Source of the DNA: an uncultured Pelagibacteraceae bacterium
GTDB lineage: Bacteria > Pseudomonadota > Alphaproteobacteria > Pelagibacterales > Pelagibacteraceae
Length of the DNA stretch: 51,969 nucleotides
Direction of reading: 5' to 3'
Assembly: GCA_902546795.1 (NCBI GenBank)
Contig: CACCLK010000004.1
Location: 1 to 51,969 of the forward strand
This document shows positions 4,807-46,866 of this stretch, piece by piece; positions within the stretch are counted from its first letter, which is position 1; each line of letters opens with the position of its first letter. Below the pieces are notes generated by a model. The model searched no databases. It was not told the origin of the DNA and saw only the letters and a program-made list of their open reading frames with translations. The translations under genes and the position numbers were made by a program.

Positions 4807-5811
4807 ATGGTTAAAGTTGGTATTAATGGTTTTGGTAGAATAGGTAGATTAATTTTAAGAGCTATTTTAGAAAATTATAAAAATAAAATTCAAGTTGCTG
4901 CAATTAATGATTTAGGATCAATAGAAACTAACGCGCACTTAATTAAGTACGATAGTACTCATGGTATCATTAATGAAGATATTCAGACTTCAAAAGTCGG
5001 TTTTAAAATCGGTGATCAAGAAATAAAAGTTTTTGCAGAGAAGGATCCGGCTAACATTCCCTGGGGGAAAGTAGGAGCTGATGTAGTTTTAGAATGTACT
5101 GGTATATTTTTAGATAAATCTTCAGCAGAAAAACATATTAAAAGTGGAGCTAAAAAAGTAATAATCTCAGCTCCAGGAAAAGAAGTAGATTTTACAATTG
5201 TTCAAGGTGTTAATAGCAAAGAGTTAAAAAAAGAACATAATATTATTTCAAATGGGTCTTGCACAACAAACTGTTTAGCTCCTGTTGCTATGGTTTTAGA
5301 AAAAAACTTCGGGATAAGTTATGGTTATATGACTACTATTCATAGCTACACTGGTGATCAAAAACTTCTAGATACATTGCACAAAGACTTAAGAAGAGCT
5401 AGATCTACTGAGGGCGCAATGATACCCACCTCAACAGGTGCAGCCAAAGCAATGAGTTTAGTTTTACCAAGTTTAAAAGGTAAATTAGATGGAACAGCAA
5501 TTAGGGTTCCTACACCTAATGTTTCTCTTATTGATTTAACCTTAGTTACTGAAAAAGAAGTGACCGCAGAGAGCATTAATAATGCTATGTCAAAAGCTGC
5601 TGATGGTGAGCTTAAAGGTATATTAGGTGTTAATAATAAACCACTAGTCTCTAAAGATTTTAACCATAACGCACACAGCTCAATTTTTGATTTAACCCAA
5701 ACACAAGTGATTAAAGGTAAATTTAGCCGAGTATTATCATGGTATGATAATGAATGGGGCTTTTCTAATAGAATGTGCGATACAACTATTCAAATAGCAA
5801 ATCTGATTTAA
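4807..5811 (+). CDS. gap: Glyceraldehyde-3-phosphate dehydrogenase
   Basis: A full-length 334-residue type I GAPDH of central glycolysis/gluconeogenesis. The Rossmann motif GINGFGRIGR opens the protein; the catalytic Cys152 lies in SNGSCTTNC and the general-base His179 in TIHSYTGDQ. The S-loop (YTGDQKLLD, then LRRAR) resembles the chloroplast/cyanobacterial GapA-Gap2 type, some of which also use NADP; Asp35 after the second strand argues for NAD, so cofactor use cannot be settled here. A good ribosome site AAAGGAG sits at 4795-4801. The gene is convergent with the pyk transcript. Confidence 0.97.
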   Translation: MVKVGINGFGRIGRLILRAILENYKNKIQVAAINDLGSIETNAHLIKYDSTHGIINEDIQTSKVGFKIGDQEIKVFAEKDPANIPWGKVGADVVLECTGIFLDKSSAEKHIKSGAKKVIISAPGKEVDFTIVQGVNSKELKKEHNIISNGSCTTNCLAPVAMVLEKNFGISYGYMTTIHSYTGDQKLLDTLHKDLRRARSTEGAMIPTSTGAAKAMSLVLPSLKGKLDGTAIRVPTPNVSLIDLTLVTEKEVTAESINNAMSKAADGELKGILGVNNKPLVSKDFNHNAHSSIFDLTQTQVIKGKFSRVLSWYDNEWGFSNRMCDTTIQIANLI

Positions 5812-10143: not shown

Positions 10144-11190
10144 CTAACATCCTTTAAATGAAGCGTACATACTCTGTAAAAGTTCAGAGTACATGCCTTT
10201 ACCTTTATCTAAAGTCGCACCAAGAGGATCTAGAACACCAGTTTTAATTTTAGTGTCTTTCGCTATTGATTTTATAATTGCCGGATTGAATTGAGGTTCT
10301 GAAAAAAGACAATTTACTTTTTCATGCTCTATAACCTCTCTAATTTCAGATAATTGTTCAGCCCCAGGCAAAACATCTGGATTTACTGTTAAAGCTCCAA
10401 GAACTTTAATACCAAATCTATTTTCAAAATATTGGTAAGCATCATGGAAAACTACAAATCTAAGATTTCCTTTTAGATCTCTTTTAATATTTTTTGTTAA
10501 ATTATCTAATTCAGACTGAGCTTTTTTAGAATTAGCTTTATACTTAGAGCTGTTATCTGGATCTAATTTAACTAATTGTTTTTCGATTTCTTTTACAATT
10601 ACTTTAGCATTCATTGGATCTAACCAAACATGTGGATCGTGTTCACCGTGAGCATGTCCCTCATGCCCGTGATCATCATGTTTAGCTTTTTTATGACCAT
10701 GATCATCGTGTTTCTTTTCTTTATGACCGTGTCCATGATCATCATGTTTTTTCTCTTTATGTCCATGCCCATGATCGTCATGTTTCTTTTCTTTATGACC
10801 GTGTCCATGATCATCATGACCTTCAAATATATTTTTTTCTCTAAACTTAAGTTTTTTAACTCCACTTAAGTCCATTATTTCTACATTAACAGCCTTTTTA
10901 GCAATTGTATTTAATGGTTTTTCTAGGAATGCCTCTAAATCTTCACCAACCCAAATAATTAAGTCAGCTTTTTCAATCATTTTTGCATGTGAAGGTTTTA
11001 GGCTAAATCCATGTGGTGAATTATAGCCGTCAACAATTACATCAGGTTTGCCTACACCATCCATTACGTAACTAGCTAAAGAATGAATAGGTTTTATTGA
11101 TGTGACTACGTTTACATCCGCGTTCACAGAGGACTTAAGCCCAAAGATTAAAAAGATAGTTATTGTAAGCTTTGAAATTTTGTTTAACAT
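10144..11190 (-). CDS. znuA: Zinc ABC transporter substrate-binding protein ZnuA
   Basis: A periplasmic zinc-binding protein of the cluster A-I family. I place the start at the ATG at 11190 (MLNKISKLTITIFLIFGLKS, a good signal peptide). An upstream ATG at 11211 lies inside the Zur operator and adds only non-signal residues. This gives 348 residues. Metal ligands are the His in SIKPIHSLA, the His in DPHVWLDP, the His in VFHDAYQYF and an acidic residue in LFSEPQF. Between the first two ligands lies a long His/Asp/Lys tandem-repeat loop (residues ~125-184). It is divergent from znuC. Confidence 0.95.
   Translation of the reverse strand: MLNKISKLTITIFLIFGLKSSVNADVNVVTSIKPIHSLASYVMDGVGKPDVIVDGYNSPHGFSLKPSHAKMIEKADLIIWVGEDLEAFLEKPLNTIAKKAVNVEIMDLSGVKKLKFREKNIFEGHDDHGHGHKEKKHDDHGHGHKEKKHDDHGHGHKEKKHDDHGHKKAKHDDHGHEGHAHGEHDPHVWLDPMNAKVIVKEIEKQLVKLDPDNSSKYKANSKKAQSELDNLTKNIKRDLKGNLRFVVFHDAYQYFENRFGIKVLGALTVNPDVLPGAEQLSEIREVIEHEKVNCLFSEPQFNPAIIKSIAKDTKIKTGVLDPLGATLDKGKGMYSELLQSMYASFKGC
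10639..10818 (-). repeat. In-frame tandem repeat encoding the ZnuA histidine-rich loop
   Basis: Three near-identical 36-base units encode HDDHGHGHKEKK. A shortened 30-base unit (HDDHGHKKAK) and a diverged tail (HDDHGHEGHAHGEHD) follow. Every unit keeps the frame. Such loops in ZnuA proteins bind extra zinc and may act as a scavenging or sensing arm. The near identity of the units at DNA level indicates recent expansion and potential length variation between strains. Confidence 0.95.
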
Positions 11191-11196
11191 AAGATT

Positions 11197-11227
11197 GTTA
11201 TAATGTAACATTTGTTATAATATAACA
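11197..11227. promoter_or_regulatory. Double Zur-type operator between znuA and znuCB-zur
   Basis: Two adjacent palindromes are present: TTGTTATAATGTAACAT (centred ~11203, one mismatch) and the perfect TGTTATAATATAACA (11213-11227). Both match the known proteobacterial Zur box core GTTATANTATAAC. They occupy the space between the corrected znuA start (11190) and znuC (11251), so both divergent transcripts should be repressed by Zn-loaded Zur, encoded at the end of the right arm. Confidence 0.88.
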
Positions 11228-13320: not shown

Positions 13321-14262
13321 ATGAAATTATTAAAAATACTTACAACTATATTTTTTATTTCATTAATAAATTTTTCGTTAAATGCAAAAGAAATAAAAAT
13401 GGGTAAAGCTGATTGGGATACAGGTTATTTCCAAGCAGAGGTTTATAAAAAAGCACTAGAAAAAATGGGTTATAAAGTTACTGGCCCAACTGTTATGAAG
13501 CCACAGGTTTTCTACGTTGCAGCAGCAGCAGGGGATATGGATCTTTGGGTTAATGGTTGGTTTGGAAACCACGACTCTTATGTTAAAGAGGCTATGGGTA
13601 AAGTTAAGCCTGTAGGTTATGTTGCTAAAAGCGGCGGCTTACAAGGTTACCTAATAGACAAAAAAACAGCGGATAAATTTAACATCAAATCTGTTATGGA
13701 CATTAAAAATCACGCTAAAGAGTTTGATTCAAATGGTGATGGGAAAGCAGATATGGTTGCCTGTCATCCGGGATGGGGTTGTGAAAAAATTATATCCAGG
13801 CATTTTGAGGAACTAGGTCTGGGTGAATTTATTAATCCAATAAAAGCAGATTACTCAGCGGCTATGGCGGATATAATTTCAAGATACAAAAACGGCAAAT
13901 CAGTATTGTTTTATACTTGGACTCCAAATTGGACAGTCGGCACTTTAAAATTAGGTGAGGATGTAGTTTGGATCGAAGCTCCTTTTAGTGAAACAAAGGT
14001 GGTTAGCGTACCAAATGCAACAAAATCAAAACTTAATATGGGATTTGGTGTAAACGACATTAGACCAGCTGCAAATGTTGATTTTTTGAAAGCCAATCCA
14101 AAAGTTGAAAAGTTTTTAAAAAAAGCATCTATACCTTTAGCAGATATTGCTGCTCAGAACTTGAAAATGAATAAAGGTGAGAAAAGTGAAAAGGCTATAA
14201 AAAAACATGCAGAAGAATGGATTAAAGCCAACGAGAGCACTTTTAATAGTTGGATAAATTAA
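13321..14262 (+). CDS. proX: Quaternary-amine (glycine betaine/proline-type) binding protein, copy 1
   Basis: A 313-residue OpuAC/ProX-family periplasmic protein with a 22-residue signal peptide ending near SLNA. Aromatic residues suited to a trimethylammonium cage appear in ADWDTGYF, WVNGWFG and YTWTPNWTVG. A DSNGDGKAD stretch resembles a calcium-binding loop. Likely ligands are glycine betaine, proline betaine, DMSP or TMAO; the exact one cannot be read from sequence. A strongly similar second copy follows after a hairpin, and a permease gene after that, but no ATPase gene. Confidence 0.92.
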   Translation: MKLLKILTTIFFISLINFSLNAKEIKMGKADWDTGYFQAEVYKKALEKMGYKVTGPTVMKPQVFYVAAAAGDMDLWVNGWFGNHDSYVKEAMGKVKPVGYVAKSGGLQGYLIDKKTADKFNIKSVMDIKNHAKEFDSNGDGKADMVACHPGWGCEKIISRHFEELGLGEFINPIKADYSAAMADIISRYKNGKSVLFYTWTPNWTVGTLKLGEDVVWIEAPFSETKVVSVPNATKSKLNMGFGVNDIRPAANVDFLKANPKVEKFLKKASIPLADIAAQNLKMNKGEKSEKAIKKHAEEWIKANESTFNSWIN

Positions 14263-14392: not shown

Positions 14393-15337
14393 ATGAAATA
14401 TTTAAAACATTTAGTAGTATCATTGGTCGCAGCAATTACCATTAGTAGTGGGGCTATTGCTAATGAAATCAAAATGGGTAAAGCAGACTGGGATACGGGT
14501 TATTTCCAGGCTGAGATCTATAAAGCAGCTTTAGAGAAGATGGGTTACAAAGTTTCTGGCCCAACTGTAATGAAACCACAAGTTTTTTATGTTGCAGCAA
14601 CTGCTGGAGATGTTGACCTTTGGGTTAACGGCTGGTTTGGAACTCATGACGGGTATATCGCAGAGTCTAAAGGTAAAGTAAAACCAGTTGGCTATGTAAT
14701 GAAGGGTGGAGGAGCCCAAGGCTATTTAATTGATAAAAAATCGGCAGATAAATTTGGTATCAAGAGCGTAATGGATATCAAAAAACACGCAAAAGAGTTT
14801 GACTCTAATGGTGATGGAAAAGCAGACATGGTTGCTTGCCCTCCAGGCTGGGGTTGTGAGAAAGTAATCTCAAAACATTTCGAAGAGCTTGGATTAGGTG
14901 ATTTTATCAATCCAGTAAAAGCAGACTACTCAGCTTCAATGGCAGATGCAGTGTCTAAATACAAAAATGGAAAATCAATTCTATTTTATACATGGACACC
15001 AAATTGGACTGTTGGCGCTTTAAAACTTGGTAAAGACGTAGTTTGGATTGAAGTACCTTACAGCGCAACTAAAGCAACTAAAATTGCAAACGCGACTAAA
15101 TCTAAAATAAATTTAGGTTTTGGTGCTGATGATATTAGACCAGCAGCGAATGTTAATTTTCTTAAGGCAAATCCAAAAGTAGAAAAAATGCTAAAAAAAG
15201 CTTCAATTCCTCTTGGAGATATTGCTGCTCAGAACTTGAAAATGAACAAGGGTGAGAAAAGCGAAAAGGCTATTAAGAAACACGCAGCTGAATGGATAAA
15301 AGCTAATCAAAGCACTTTTGATAGTTGGATTAAGTAA
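14393..15337 (+). CDS. proX: Quaternary-amine (glycine betaine/proline-type) binding protein, copy 2
   Basis: A 314-residue paralogue of the preceding gene; by eye roughly four residues in five are identical in the mature part, with unrelated signal peptides (here ending SGAIA). The same aromatic cage motifs and the DSNGDGKAD loop are kept. Differences such as AAAAGDMD/ATAGDVD and ACHPGWG/ACPPGWG could tune ligand preference. It has its own very strong ribosome site. The permease gene follows 18 bases later. Tandem duplication is the simplest origin. Confidence 0.92.
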   Translation: MKYLKHLVVSLVAAITISSGAIANEIKMGKADWDTGYFQAEIYKAALEKMGYKVSGPTVMKPQVFYVAATAGDVDLWVNGWFGTHDGYIAESKGKVKPVGYVMKGGGAQGYLIDKKSADKFGIKSVMDIKKHAKEFDSNGDGKADMVACPPGWGCEKVISKHFEELGLGDFINPVKADYSASMADAVSKYKNGKSILFYTWTPNWTVGALKLGKDVVWIEVPYSATKATKIANATKSKINLGFGADDIRPAANVNFLKANPKVEKMLKKASIPLGDIAAQNLKMNKGEKSEKAIKKHAAEWIKANQSTFDSWIK

Positions 15338-44000: not shown

Positions 44001-45068
44001 ATGTCAAAAGCTTTTCTAGAGATTAGAAACGGTAATTTTTTTGCGAGTGACAAAAATAAAGTCACTAATGTGAACCTTGTTGTAGAAAATAGAGGTGAAA
44101 TAGTATCTTTACTTGGGCCATCAGGAGTTGGAAAAACAACAATTTTGAGAACTATTGCCGGTTTGCAAAAAATTCACTCTGGAGAAATTAAACTTAATGG
44201 AGAAATAATTTCATCAGATAAAATCCATATTGAGCCTGAAAAAAGAAATATTGCCTTATCTTTTCAGGACAACTCTCTTTTTCCTAATTATAAAGTAATA
44301 GACAACATCAATTTTGGAAAAAAAAGATCTAATGGCAATTCCTCTTTTAAGACGGAAGAAATTATTAAGATTCTTCATATTGAGCAAATTTTAAATAAAT
44401 ACCCTCATCAAATAAGTGCTGGCGAGGCCCAAAGAGTTTCTCTTGCAAGATCTCTTGTTTCAAAACCAAATTTATTGCTTTTAGATGAGCCATTTTCAAA
44501 TATCGATCAGAATCTAAAAGAAGAAATTCAATATTCAGTTAAAAGATTAATTAAAAAATTTAACTTAACGACAATTATAGTAACTCATGACTCCTACGAA
44601 GCTTTCTCTTTGGCTGACAAATGTGGAGTAATATTAAATCAGGAACTGAAACAATTCGATGTTCCTTATAATGTTCACCACGAACCAAACTCTATTGAGG
44701 TTGCAAAATTTTTGAATAAAGGAGTTTTCATAGACGTGAAAGTAGTCAACAGTGATTGTGCTGTTCATAGCCTTAGACACAAAGAACTTGGTGAGATTAG
44801 AGGAAAATTGTTAGGAAATTTTCCTTCAGGAGCTAATGTAAAACTCCTTTTACAACCTGAAGATTTAATACACGACGATCAAAGCAAATTGAAACTTGAA
44901 GTAGTAGATAGAAAATTTAGGGGTACAAATTTTGTTTACACATTAAAAACTGAAAAAGGAGAGCAAATTCCAGTCTTTGTTCACTCTCATCATATTCATC
45001 AACATGAGAGATCTGAAAAATTTGGAATTAAGACTCCAATTTTTATTGATCACTTAGTATGTTTTTGA
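44001..45068 (+). CDS. fbpC: Iron(III) ABC transporter ATP-binding protein
   Basis: A 355-residue ATPase: Walker A GPSGVGKTT, Q-loop SFQDNSLFPNY, Walker B LLLLDEPFSNID and switch His in VTHDSYEAF. The signature is ISAGEAQRVSLARSL rather than LSGGQ, a variant common in FbpC-type proteins. A C-terminal TOBE-like domain follows residue ~235 (LLLQPEDLIHDD) and ends with a His-rich stretch VHSHHIHQHE, which could sense metal. Last gene of the iron operon; tRNA-Arg follows 28 bases later. Confidence 0.93.
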   Translation: MSKAFLEIRNGNFFASDKNKVTNVNLVVENRGEIVSLLGPSGVGKTTILRTIAGLQKIHSGEIKLNGEIISSDKIHIEPEKRNIALSFQDNSLFPNYKVIDNINFGKKRSNGNSSFKTEEIIKILHIEQILNKYPHQISAGEAQRVSLARSLVSKPNLLLLDEPFSNIDQNLKEEIQYSVKRLIKKFNLTTIIVTHDSYEAFSLADKCGVILNQELKQFDVPYNVHHEPNSIEVAKFLNKGVFIDVKVVNSDCAVHSLRHKELGEIRGKLLGNFPSGANVKLLLQPEDLIHDDQSKLKLEVVDRKFRGTNFVYTLKTEKGEQIPVFVHSHHIHQHERSEKFGIKTPIFIDHLVCF

Positions 45069-45096: not shown

Positions 45097-45173
45097 GCGC
45101 CCTTAGCTCAGCTGGATAGAGCATCGGTTTTCTAAACCGAGGGTCGTAGGTTCGAATCCTTCAGGGCGCGCCA
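45097..45173 (+). tRNA. tRNA-Arg (anticodon UCU)
   Basis: The acceptor stem GCGCCCT (45097-45103) pairs with AGGGCGC (45163-45169), followed by G and encoded CCA. The D-arm TAGCTCAGCTGGATAGAGCA and T-arm with GGTTCGAATCC are canonical. The anticodon stem TCGGT/ACCGA encloses TTTCTAA, so the anticodon is TCT, reading AGA/AGG arginine codons, heavily used in this AT-rich genome. Confidence 0.97.
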
Positions 45174-45175
45174 AA

Positions 45176-45616
45176 TCAGTTGTCTAGTTCAATTAATTTT
45201 TTTTTTAATTTTTTTGGTAAATTATTAAACCAAGACTCTTCCTCTCCAGATCGAGGTAGTATCTCACCATATTCAATCATTTGAGCAGGTGGTAAATCTA
45301 CAATGTAAACCCAAATTTTATCCCTACTTAACCCAGAATTTTGAATTAAAGTATCTCTTAATTTTTTTATTAATTTATCTTTTATTTCCTCACTTCTACC
45401 AGCTCTTATTTGCCCATTAAGGAATAATTGTTTTTTTTTCACAGATTTTCCACCCATAAAGTGGTAGTTTTTTTTATTTTCAACAAAGATTACTTGTGCA
45501 AAAAAAGATTTAGCACCTGTAACTTTTTCGTGTACTGAGGTTATGCCTTTAGCAATTTTATTTTTTTTTTGTTTTGTTAAAGTAAAATTTGAATATTTAA
45601 CCGTGTAAGTAGGCAT
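45176..45616 (-). CDS. Tautomerase-superfamily protein, cis-CaaD/Cg10062-like
   Basis: A 146-residue protein of the cis-3-chloroacrylic acid dehalogenase group. After Met removal the N-terminal Pro1 is the catalytic base/acid. Numbering from Pro1, His28 (TSVHEK), Arg70 and Arg73 (IRAGR), Tyr103 (IWVYIV) and Glu114 (QMIEYG) all fall exactly at the positions of the six catalytic residues of cis-CaaD. The end EILPRSGEEESWFNNL is also shared. Cg10062 has the same six residues with other activity, so dehalogenation is not assured. It ends 3 bases from the convergent tRNA. Confidence 0.9.
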   Translation of the reverse strand: MPTYTVKYSNFTLTKQKKNKIAKGITSVHEKVTGAKSFFAQVIFVENKKNYHFMGGKSVKKKQLFLNGQIRAGRSEEIKDKLIKKLRDTLIQNSGLSRDKIWVYIVDLPPAQMIEYGEILPRSGEEESWFNNLPKKLKKKLIELDN

Positions 45617-45819: not shown

Positions 45820-46866
45820 ATGATGAAATCAATTAAAACTTTGGTTTTAGTTACATTTGCTTCTTTGCTTTTGGTCGCTTGCGGTCAAGGTGGTGGAGGT
45901 GCAGGTTCAAAAAAATCTAAAACTTTAGAAAACACAAAGAAAGCTGGTTTTGTAAAGTGTGGAGTTTCTGAAGGAGTCCCGGGATTTTCTAATGCAGATG
46001 CATCAGGAAATTGGACAGGGATAGATGTTGATGTATGTAGAGCTGTAGCAGCAGCTGTATTGGGAGATGCTGATAAAGTTAAATACACACCATTAAGTGC
46101 TAAAGAAAGATTCACTGCTTTAAATTCTGGCGAAATAGATATTTTATCTAGAAACACTACTTGGACTTTATCAAGAGACGCTGACATTGGTTTAACATTT
46201 GTTGGAGTCAATTTCTATGATGGACAAGGTTTTATGGTAAGAAAATCTTCTGGAATAAATTCTGTGAATGAATTCAAAGATGGCATAGTTGCATGTACTA
46301 ACATAGGTACAACAACTGAACTTAACATGAGAGACTTTTTTAACTCAAAAAATGTTAAATATGAGCCACTTGGATTTGAAAGCGCGGATGAAGTTGTTCA
46401 AGCTTATGACGCAGGCAGATGTGATACTTACACAACTGATAAATCTGGTCTAGCTGCACAAAGAACAAAAATGAAGGATCCTTCTGAGCATAAAGTGTTA
46501 CCAGAAACAATTTCTAAAGAACCATTAGGTCCTGTTGTAAGACAAGGCGATAATGTTTGGGAAGATATTGTAAGATGGTCTTTAAATACATTTATTGAAG
46601 CAGAAGAATATGGAGTTACTTCAAAAAACGCGTCTAGCTTAAAAGACTCAGATAATCCTGCTATTAAAAGACTAGTTGGGGCAGAGGGAGAACTTGGAGC
46701 TGCTTTTGGTCTAGATAATGAATGGAGCTTAAGAATTATTGAGCAAGTTGGAAACTATGGTGAAAGTTACAAAAAGCACCTTGGTGATACAGGAATTATG
46801 CCGAACAGAGGTCCAAATCAACTTTGGACTAAAGGCGGAATTCTATATGTTCCACCTGCACGATAA
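45820..46866 (+). CDS. aapJ: General L-amino acid ABC transporter substrate-binding protein
   Basis: A 348-residue AapJ/BztA-type binding protein (YhdW family). The N-terminus has a lipobox, LLLVAC, with Cys21 followed by GQGGGGAG, so it is probably a lipoprotein. VKCGVSEGVPGFSNADASGN and GIDVDVCRAVAAAVLGD are family blocks and DAGRCDTYTTDKSGLAAQR completes the fold. It binds a broad range of L-amino acids for AapQM. The second in-frame ATG (45823) could also be the start. A terminator follows. Confidence 0.95.
   Translation: MMKSIKTLVLVTFASLLLVACGQGGGGAGSKKSKTLENTKKAGFVKCGVSEGVPGFSNADASGNWTGIDVDVCRAVAAAVLGDADKVKYTPLSAKERFTALNSGEIDILSRNTTWTLSRDADIGLTFVGVNFYDGQGFMVRKSSGINSVNEFKDGIVACTNIGTTTELNMRDFFNSKNVKYEPLGFESADEVVQAYDAGRCDTYTTDKSGLAAQRTKMKDPSEHKVLPETISKEPLGPVVRQGDNVWEDIVRWSLNTFIEAEEYGVTSKNASSLKDSDNPAIKRLVGAEGELGAAFGLDNEWSLRIIEQVGNYGESYKKHLGDTGIMPNRGPNQLWTKGGILYVPPAR

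Follow-up and report, generated by a model that had tools for sequence, protein, structure and literature searches.

A cis-CaaD-subgroup tautomerase of SAR11 bacteria, carried as a single-gene cassette at a tRNA-Arg gene

The tRNA-Arg locus and its tautomerase gene

The window, a stretch of 51,969 nucleotides from an uncultured Pelagibacteraceae bacterium (SAR11), contains a short gene on the reverse strand, TAUT, inserted between a tRNA-Arg gene and an ABC transporter gene (Table 1). The reading frame starts with ATG and stops with TGA, and the N-terminus of the product reads MPTYTVKYSN. Counted from Pro1, the protein carries P1, H28, R70, R73, W101, Y103, E114 and L119.

Table 1. Features at the tRNA-Arg cassette site (site B) of the window
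Feature	Coordinates	Strand	Basis or remark
ABC transporter ATPase, outer flank of the site	44001..45068	+	presumably FbpC
tRNA-Arg (TCT), one border of the site	45097..45173	+	CCA end 2 bp from the TAUT stop codon
TAUT, cis-CaaD-subgroup tautomerase, 146 aa	45176..45616	-	ORF, homology, Pfam, fold
Amino-acid ABC transporter substrate-binding protein, other border	45820..46866	+	presumably YhdW

The Pfam family PF14832 (Tautomerase_3) scores 50.2 bits on TAUT, with a cut-off of 25.7, and Tautomerase PF01361 also lies above its cut-off. Among the NCBIfam models, only tautomerases were matched, none of them reaching its cut-off. The closest named enzymes in a PDB sequence search are Cg10062 and cis-CaaD: phmmer aligns Cg10062 (3n4g) without gaps over residues 2-145 (E 1.7e-29) and native cis-CaaD (3mf8) over residues 2-135 (E 2e-25). 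Aligned identity is 35.6% with cis-CaaD (146 columns) and 35.2% with Cg10062 (145 columns), the two enzymes being 32.4% identical to each other.

An AlphaFold2 model, computed from the window protein and 18 relatives, has a mean pLDDT of 89 and a pTM of 0.81. The best Foldseek matches of this model are entries of Cg10062 and cis-CaaD, with a TM of ~0.9. In VIA-align, the top 14 rows are effectively tied (Z 20.1-20.8 over 142-144 residues), and all of them are cis-CaaD, Cg10062 or N1. The predicted fold thus fits cis-CaaD and Cg10062 alike and does not discriminate between them. Some PDB titles among the matches name covalent intermediates formed on hydration of acetylenecarboxylic acid in mutants of both enzymes.

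The earlier note had placed five catalytic residues of TAUT at the positions known from cis-CaaD. All of them are confirmed, and the base Pro1 is the sixth. At an overall matching rate of 36%, simple arithmetic gives a chance of ~0.2% for all six sites to agree. Moreover, the six are invariant in 79 of 79 aquatic rows of the alignment, a set that counts the window protein and leaves out eight rows with Ala1. Given this invariance and the low chance expectation, the match reflects homology and not coincidence. Across the same 79 rows, 35 positions are invariant, including the six and His51; the latter position is occupied by Val in cis-CaaD and by Tyr in Cg10062. The median dN/dS is 0.235 (1988 non-independent pairs with dS of 0.1-1.5), which suggests purifying selection on the gene.

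By sequence, fold and motif, TAUT belongs to the cis-CaaD subgroup of the tautomerase superfamily: it has Pro1, two fused beta-alpha-beta units in a chain of ~145 aa, the PF14832 domain and His28, Arg70, Arg73, Tyr103 and Glu114. This bears out the earlier assignment of a cis-CaaD/Cg10062-type tautomerase to SAR11.

Relationship to cis-CaaD and Cg10062

The alignment comprised 129 rows, made up of 127 loci, cis-CaaD and Cg10062; of the 131 loci available before alignment, L083, L088, L179 and L188 were dropped, with fewer than 120 aa in frame. All six residues are found in 105 of the 129 rows, soil Burkholderiales and Cg10062 included. The other 24 are eight Ala1 rows (remaining five residues intact), one frameshifted Paraburkholderia sequence, nine distant rows (Pro1, His28, Arg70, Arg73 and Glu114 kept, position 103 different) and six 4-OT-like rows. 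According to excerpts of PMC5818174, Tyr103 and Glu114 complete the cis-CaaD active site, Linker 1, devoid of Tyr103, has no cis-CaaD activity, and Cg10062 (as CgX) is an inefficient cis-CaaD whose function is unknown, although it has the same six residues, just as the earlier note had remarked. The six residues therefore mark the subgroup and not a substrate or dehalogenation, and their earlier use as a pointer to a haloacrylate enzyme is not supported in that form.

Two loop positions, 34 and 38, distinguish TAUT from cis-CaaD. Among the six-residue rows, Ala34 is near-universal (104 of 105), the sole Thr34 being that of cis-CaaD itself. The combination of Ala34 and Phe38 is present in all 103 six-residue locus rows, the window included, whereas cis-CaaD has Thr34 and Leu38 and Cg10062 has Ala34 and Leu38. 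Thr34 of cis-CaaD is said to have a role in covalent catalysis, from a mutational study, and a T34A structure of the enzyme exists in the PDB, judging from the entry title. A simulation study singles out Thr34 as a key loop residue (PMC11641302, in excerpt).

Compared with Cg10062 of Corynebacterium glutamicum (3n4g, 3n4d, 7ms0-7ms9, 9nf4), TAUT has the same fold, length, six residues and Ala34 at 35% identity, but it differs by Phe38, by the loop (TGAKSFF vs. AHAPKYL) and by its group in the tree. With cis-CaaD of a coryneform bacterium (2flz, 3mf8, 9nff), it shares the six residues at 36% identity, a Z of ~20.5 and two motifs, the TG..F.AQV loop and QM.EYG..LP. On the contrary, positions 34 and 38 and the invariant His51 (Val in cis-CaaD) set the two apart, and cis-CaaD, unlike TAUT, is long-branched among soil homologues. 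N1 (7m58), a cis-CaaD family member, is as close in fold (Z 20.5 over 142 residues), but its identity is only 26-27%. Linker 1, or Ps01740 (5uif), belongs to the same superfamily and has His28, Arg70 and Glu114 like TAUT, which differs from it by the presence of Tyr103 (PMC5818174, in excerpt).

The tree was built from 52 representatives of 122 rows clustered at 80% identity, after removal of the frameshifted L162 and of the distant 4-OT-like rows L182-L185, L187 and L189. TAUT falls in an aquatic clade of 22 rows with a support of 100/98, composed of SAR11, Polynucleobacter and other Burkholderiaceae, and OM43. Its sister consists of two rows, one of them a Microvirga plasmid (92/80). cis-CaaD, whose branch is long (1.29), groups with 11 soil rows (96/89) outside the aquatic clade; the tree program warns that the placement of such long-branch rows is unsure. 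Cg10062 belongs to a separate group (98/85), and the aquatic and cis-CaaD groups are joined to its exclusion by a branch with a support of 95/81. In AU tests, with groups defined after inspection of the tree, a single clade of the aquatic rows with Cg10062 is rejected (p-AU 0.016), and one with cis-CaaD is not (p-AU 0.173). The comparison with both enzymes by phylogeny, suggested in the earlier note, has thus been answered: as far as these sequences indicate, the aquatic clade is probably a third branch, apart from Cg10062 but not firmly apart from cis-CaaD. To our knowledge, no member of the aquatic clade has been characterised, so that this position speaks neither for nor against the deep placement among non-dehalogenating tautomerases that the earlier note had named as a refutation.

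These results bear on the possibility that TAUT is a genuine cis-3-haloacrylate dehalogenase, working efficiently on haloacrylates of natural marine origin. The complete set of six residues, the grouping with cis-CaaD that the AU test leaves standing and the loop, where TG-A-KSFFAQV is closer to TG-T-QHFLAQV of cis-CaaD than to AH-A-PKYLVQV of Cg10062, all point in this direction. A marine source of such substrates is also conceivable, as the alga 'At' (taken as Asparagopsis taxiformis) is called a haloacrylic acid producer in the excerpted text of a paper on macroalgal microbiomes (PMC10919026). However, Thr34 is replaced by Ala in TAUT, cis-CaaD lies with soil rows outside the aquatic clade, and Cg10062 dehalogenates inefficiently with the same six residues (PMC5818174, in excerpt), so that an efficient dehalogenase is very improbable. 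The earlier dehalogenase interpretation is partly supported: the subgroup and the full catalytic set stand, the substrate is conjectural, and one loop residue argues against a dehalogenase.

Some homologues depart from the common pattern. Eight of them (L079, L080, L165, L168, L169, L170, L173, L175) start with MATY and have Ala1, while keeping His28, Arg70, Arg73, Tyr103 and Glu114; both of their representatives in the tree lie inside the aquatic clade. Their genomes of 1.8-2.1 Mb belong to a Burkholderiaceae-like family (f73), probably Polynucleobacter. From their sequences, they appear to form a conserved subfamily that lacks the catalytic proline. In Paraburkholderia sp. PGU19 (L162, ~5001-5419), the homologue was matched in two pieces; it is frameshifted and was kept out of the tree.

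Distribution and genomic sites

At E <= 0.001, and with the window's own genome counted in each set, TAUT is matched in 49 of 150 relatives, all in the window's genus, in 83 of 397 genomes of the order (3 of 13 genera), in 7 of 289 genomes of the class and in 10 of 398 of the phylum. The earlier note had considered an enzyme for halogenated or acetylenic three-carbon acids unexpected in an oligotrophic ocean bacterium; judged from the first two counts, the gene is not rare in SAR11. In the family of genome G711, 25 of 249 genomes have a match, some of them distant and 4-OT-like. A pattern scan of named-genome contigs returned 39 loci, mostly from uncultured Pelagibacteraceae; the others include four loci of Polynucleobacter, one of another Burkholderiaceae MAG and one of an OM43 genome. 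Carriage by phages or mobile elements was considered and rejected. No relative was confirmed in the viral contigs by the pattern scan, which finds close relatives only, and none was found in the phage records; the plasmid matches amount to 12 of 72,556 records, all below 60% identity, and cis-CaaD matches the same 12 records.

In four relatives without TAUT (G014, G015, G042, G062), the site at tRNA-Arg is empty. The gap between the tRNA and the ABC gene measures ~194-207 bp in those four vs. 646 bp in the window. The difference corresponds to the length of one gene, hence to the presence or absence of a single gene at this site. The gap is longer in some further relatives, others lack a tRNA in the stretch examined, and several TAUT-positive loci of this type contain further genes between the tRNA and TAUT. 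TAUT is thus an accessory single-gene cassette, which is a new observation. A repeat of the tRNA 3' end that could mark an integration target was searched for in the window; within three mismatches, only the tRNA itself was found.

The second location (site A) is an operon of MTA salvage and spermidine synthesis. MTAP and MtnA flank TAUT in 26 of the 30 loci listed from the 49 matched relatives and in 13 of the 39 named-contig loci, and in these 39 site-A loci, TAUT overlaps or abuts MtnA. These are counts of loci and not of genomes, as the same genome can appear in both sets; for instance, L034 and L104 do not differ in any of the six operon proteins compared. In L034, the genes follow each other as MTAP, TAUT, MtnA, a class II aldolase, a SpeD/SpeE fusion and a CN hydrolase, with a divergent APRT gene next to MTAP. 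A fused, multifunctional SpeE is described for SAR11 in the excerpts of PMC8437039.

The class II aldolase was considered as MtnB and rejected, the MtnB model scoring 67.6 vs. a cut-off of 137. Its best NCBIfam matches are L-fuculose-phosphate aldolase models, below their cut-offs, and a DHAP-shunt-like aldolase seems likelier than a dehydratase. The gene content of the L034 operon suggests MTA salvage of the DHAP-shunt type, by comparison with the excerpted PMC10986504, fed by spermidine synthesis.

Two variable slots are visible in this operon (L034:3544-8996 and L134:3338-8246), and their accessory genes vary between genomes. Elsewhere, they are empty or contain SGNH-like, esterase-like or aminotransferase-like genes, labelled by eye. 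In the genome of the window itself (L134), 2 bp lie between the ends of the MTAP and MtnA matches. All six TAUT-at-tRNA genomes checked have the operon with no TAUT inside it, two of them seen directly as site B and four matched to L052, L065, L066 and L067.

A role of TAUT in MTA/5'-deoxynucleoside salvage, with an enolisable or aldehyde compound formed after MtnA and the class II aldolase as a possible substrate, has to be weighed against this background. It would agree with the 39 loci in which TAUT touches MtnA, with the presence of MtnA in 45 of 49 TAUT-positive relatives vs. 77 of all 150 (a comparison confounded by linkage and completeness) and with the g13 genomes that have both genes, where they share one contig in 9 of 14 cases, ~7-14 kb apart. 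Co-occurrence is not obligate, however. Six of the 20 TAUT-positive g13/g15 genomes tested (from 53 found) have no MtnA match, although they are 91-97% complete, and the same applies to four of the 49 TAUT-positive relatives (60-67% complete). The same slots carry unrelated cargo or nothing, and the operon exists without TAUT. Finally, parsimony over 14 scored rows with three states requires two context changes, the minimum possible, which fits a single move of TAUT into the operon. Since the slots are variable and since TAUT-less operons and MtnA-less TAUT genomes exist, capture by the operon is weak evidence of function. An MTA-pathway enzyme was therefore demoted as the main reading and is quite unlikely.

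A third site was also observed in SAR11-type loci, in which TAUT is directly downstream of a gene resembling gamma-carbonic anhydrase (L046:4483-5441, L070, L071, L073, L074, L077). This neighbour, labelled by eye, lies just upstream of TAUT in L046 and in five of nine g13 loci. Apart from it and the MTA operon, no recurrent recognisable pathway partner was found in the aquatic loci.

Putative function

The cis-CaaD subgroup has been much studied for its mechanism, and the roles of its residues are known from the cis-CaaD literature. By analogy, Arg70 and Arg73 would form a clamp that, together with His28, binds the substrate carboxylate, Tyr103 and Glu114 would position or activate water, and Pro1 would serve as acid or nucleophile. 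Water would be added at C3 of a small activated unsaturated acid, either acetylenic (propiolate, for example) or a 3-substituted acrylate, to yield malonate semialdehyde, which the malonate/methylmalonate-semialdehyde dehydrogenase of the cell could convert to acetyl-CoA. TAUT is accordingly proposed, tentatively and with a confidence a little short of even, to be a Pro1-dependent hydratase that turns a small acetylenic or 3-substituted acrylic acid into malonate semialdehyde, forming its own aquatic branch and travelling as a one-gene cassette. The natural substrate may be one of these acids. The enzyme would behave more like Cg10062, a broad hydratase, than like a strictly cis-selective dehalogenase, and the cassette would be dispensable, scavenging or detoxifying a patchily available compound.

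The hydratase is favoured by the invariance of the six residues, the matching fold, Ala34 as in Cg10062, the hydration intermediates of acetylenecarboxylic acid named in PDB titles, the single-gene presence and absence, and two further findings that concern malonate semialdehyde. In the window's genome, a semialdehyde dehydrogenase scores above the cut-off of TIGR01722 (G000:C1:8571-10004), so that malonate semialdehyde could be metabolised further. A malonate-semialdehyde dehydrogenase, mmsA, is also listed for SAR11 in the excerpts of PMC8437039.

The other finding comes from the soil branch. On plasmids of two Paraburkholderia largidicola strains (L102 and L163), a homologue of the cis-CaaD branch lies ~1.2 kb from a tautomerase_2 gene, identical in the two. 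The best solved match of this neighbour is the malonate semialdehyde decarboxylase (MSAD) 2aag (E 8.7e-44), which we take to be the Pseudomonas pavonaceae enzyme, and it has Pro1, Asp37, Arg73 and Arg75, presumably the catalytic residues of MSAD. Downstream in L102 is a 554-aa permease whose best model, below cut-off, is a metabolite/H+ symporter; a permease of the same kind adjoins the homologue on a Cupriavidus plasmid (L096). Judged from gene content, this company is what would be expected for a route from an acid to malonate semialdehyde, and the cluster is a possible haloacrylate/propiolate pathway. The cluster spans L102:4431-8157 and recurs in L163, L102 adding the symporter-like permease. 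The C-terminal end of the L102 homologue is divergent in the alignment, and the copy in L163 is read without interruption over 148 aa.

Against the hydratase stands the fact that this pairing belongs to the soil branch and not to the aquatic clade. No MSAD-type gene was found around TAUT in the window or in any SAR11 locus examined, and a search of the window's genome (~61% complete) returned only TAUT itself, below cut-off. The sole case within the aquatic clade is a Burkholderiaceae MAG (L044), where a tautomerase_2 neighbour has Pro1 and Asp37 but, by plain counting, no Arg73 or Arg75. The scarcity of recurrent partners outside the MTA operon and the eight Ala1 rows also count against it.

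Alternatively, TAUT may be mainly a keto-enol tautomerase, phenylenolpyruvate-like, or a general detoxifier of electrophilic acids, with hydration as a secondary activity. The whole linker set had phenylenolpyruvate tautomerase activity in the excerpts of PMC5818174, regulators of the MarR or TetR type are encoded close to plasmid homologues, and an EmrB-like exporter gene, below its model cut-off, is nearby in L102. Yet the same excerpts describe a stepwise loss of this activity towards CgX and cis-CaaD, and Tyr103 and Glu114 are invariant in the 79 aquatic rows, which makes a primary tautomerase rather unlikely.

A variant of the proposed hydratase, itself improbable, is a dedicated enzyme that SAR11 and other streamlined plankton share by gene transfer, directed at a natural acetylenic or 3-substituted acrylic acid of seawater. 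The acid may be turned into malonate semialdehyde for carbon, or simply disarmed, and capture by the operon in one SAR11 lineage may mean that the substrate arises as a side product when sulfur or deoxynucleosides are salvaged. If true, this would be the first natural substrate for Cg10062-like enzymes, Cg10062 being structurally characterised but still of unknown function (PMC5818174, in excerpt). Literature searches on 3-chloroacrylic acid with SAR11 gave no match and those combining acetylenic acids and marine bacteria no useful result, and no mention of 'tautomerase' was found in the excerpts of PMC10986504, PMC8437039, PMC11698098 and PMC6302742. A conserved aquatic clade in abundant ocean bacteria, with defined empty and operon sites, is a place to seek a natural substrate, and SAR11 offers natural cassette-plus and cassette-minus genomes for comparison.

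Two further observations concern transporter genes elsewhere in the window. A binding protein of the zinc ABC type, labelled by eye, is encoded at 10144-11211 (-) and contains tandem His-rich repeats (KKHDDHGHGHKE). At 13321-14262 and 14393-15337 (+), two adjacent and very similar ABC substrate-binding proteins appear to result from a tandem duplication.
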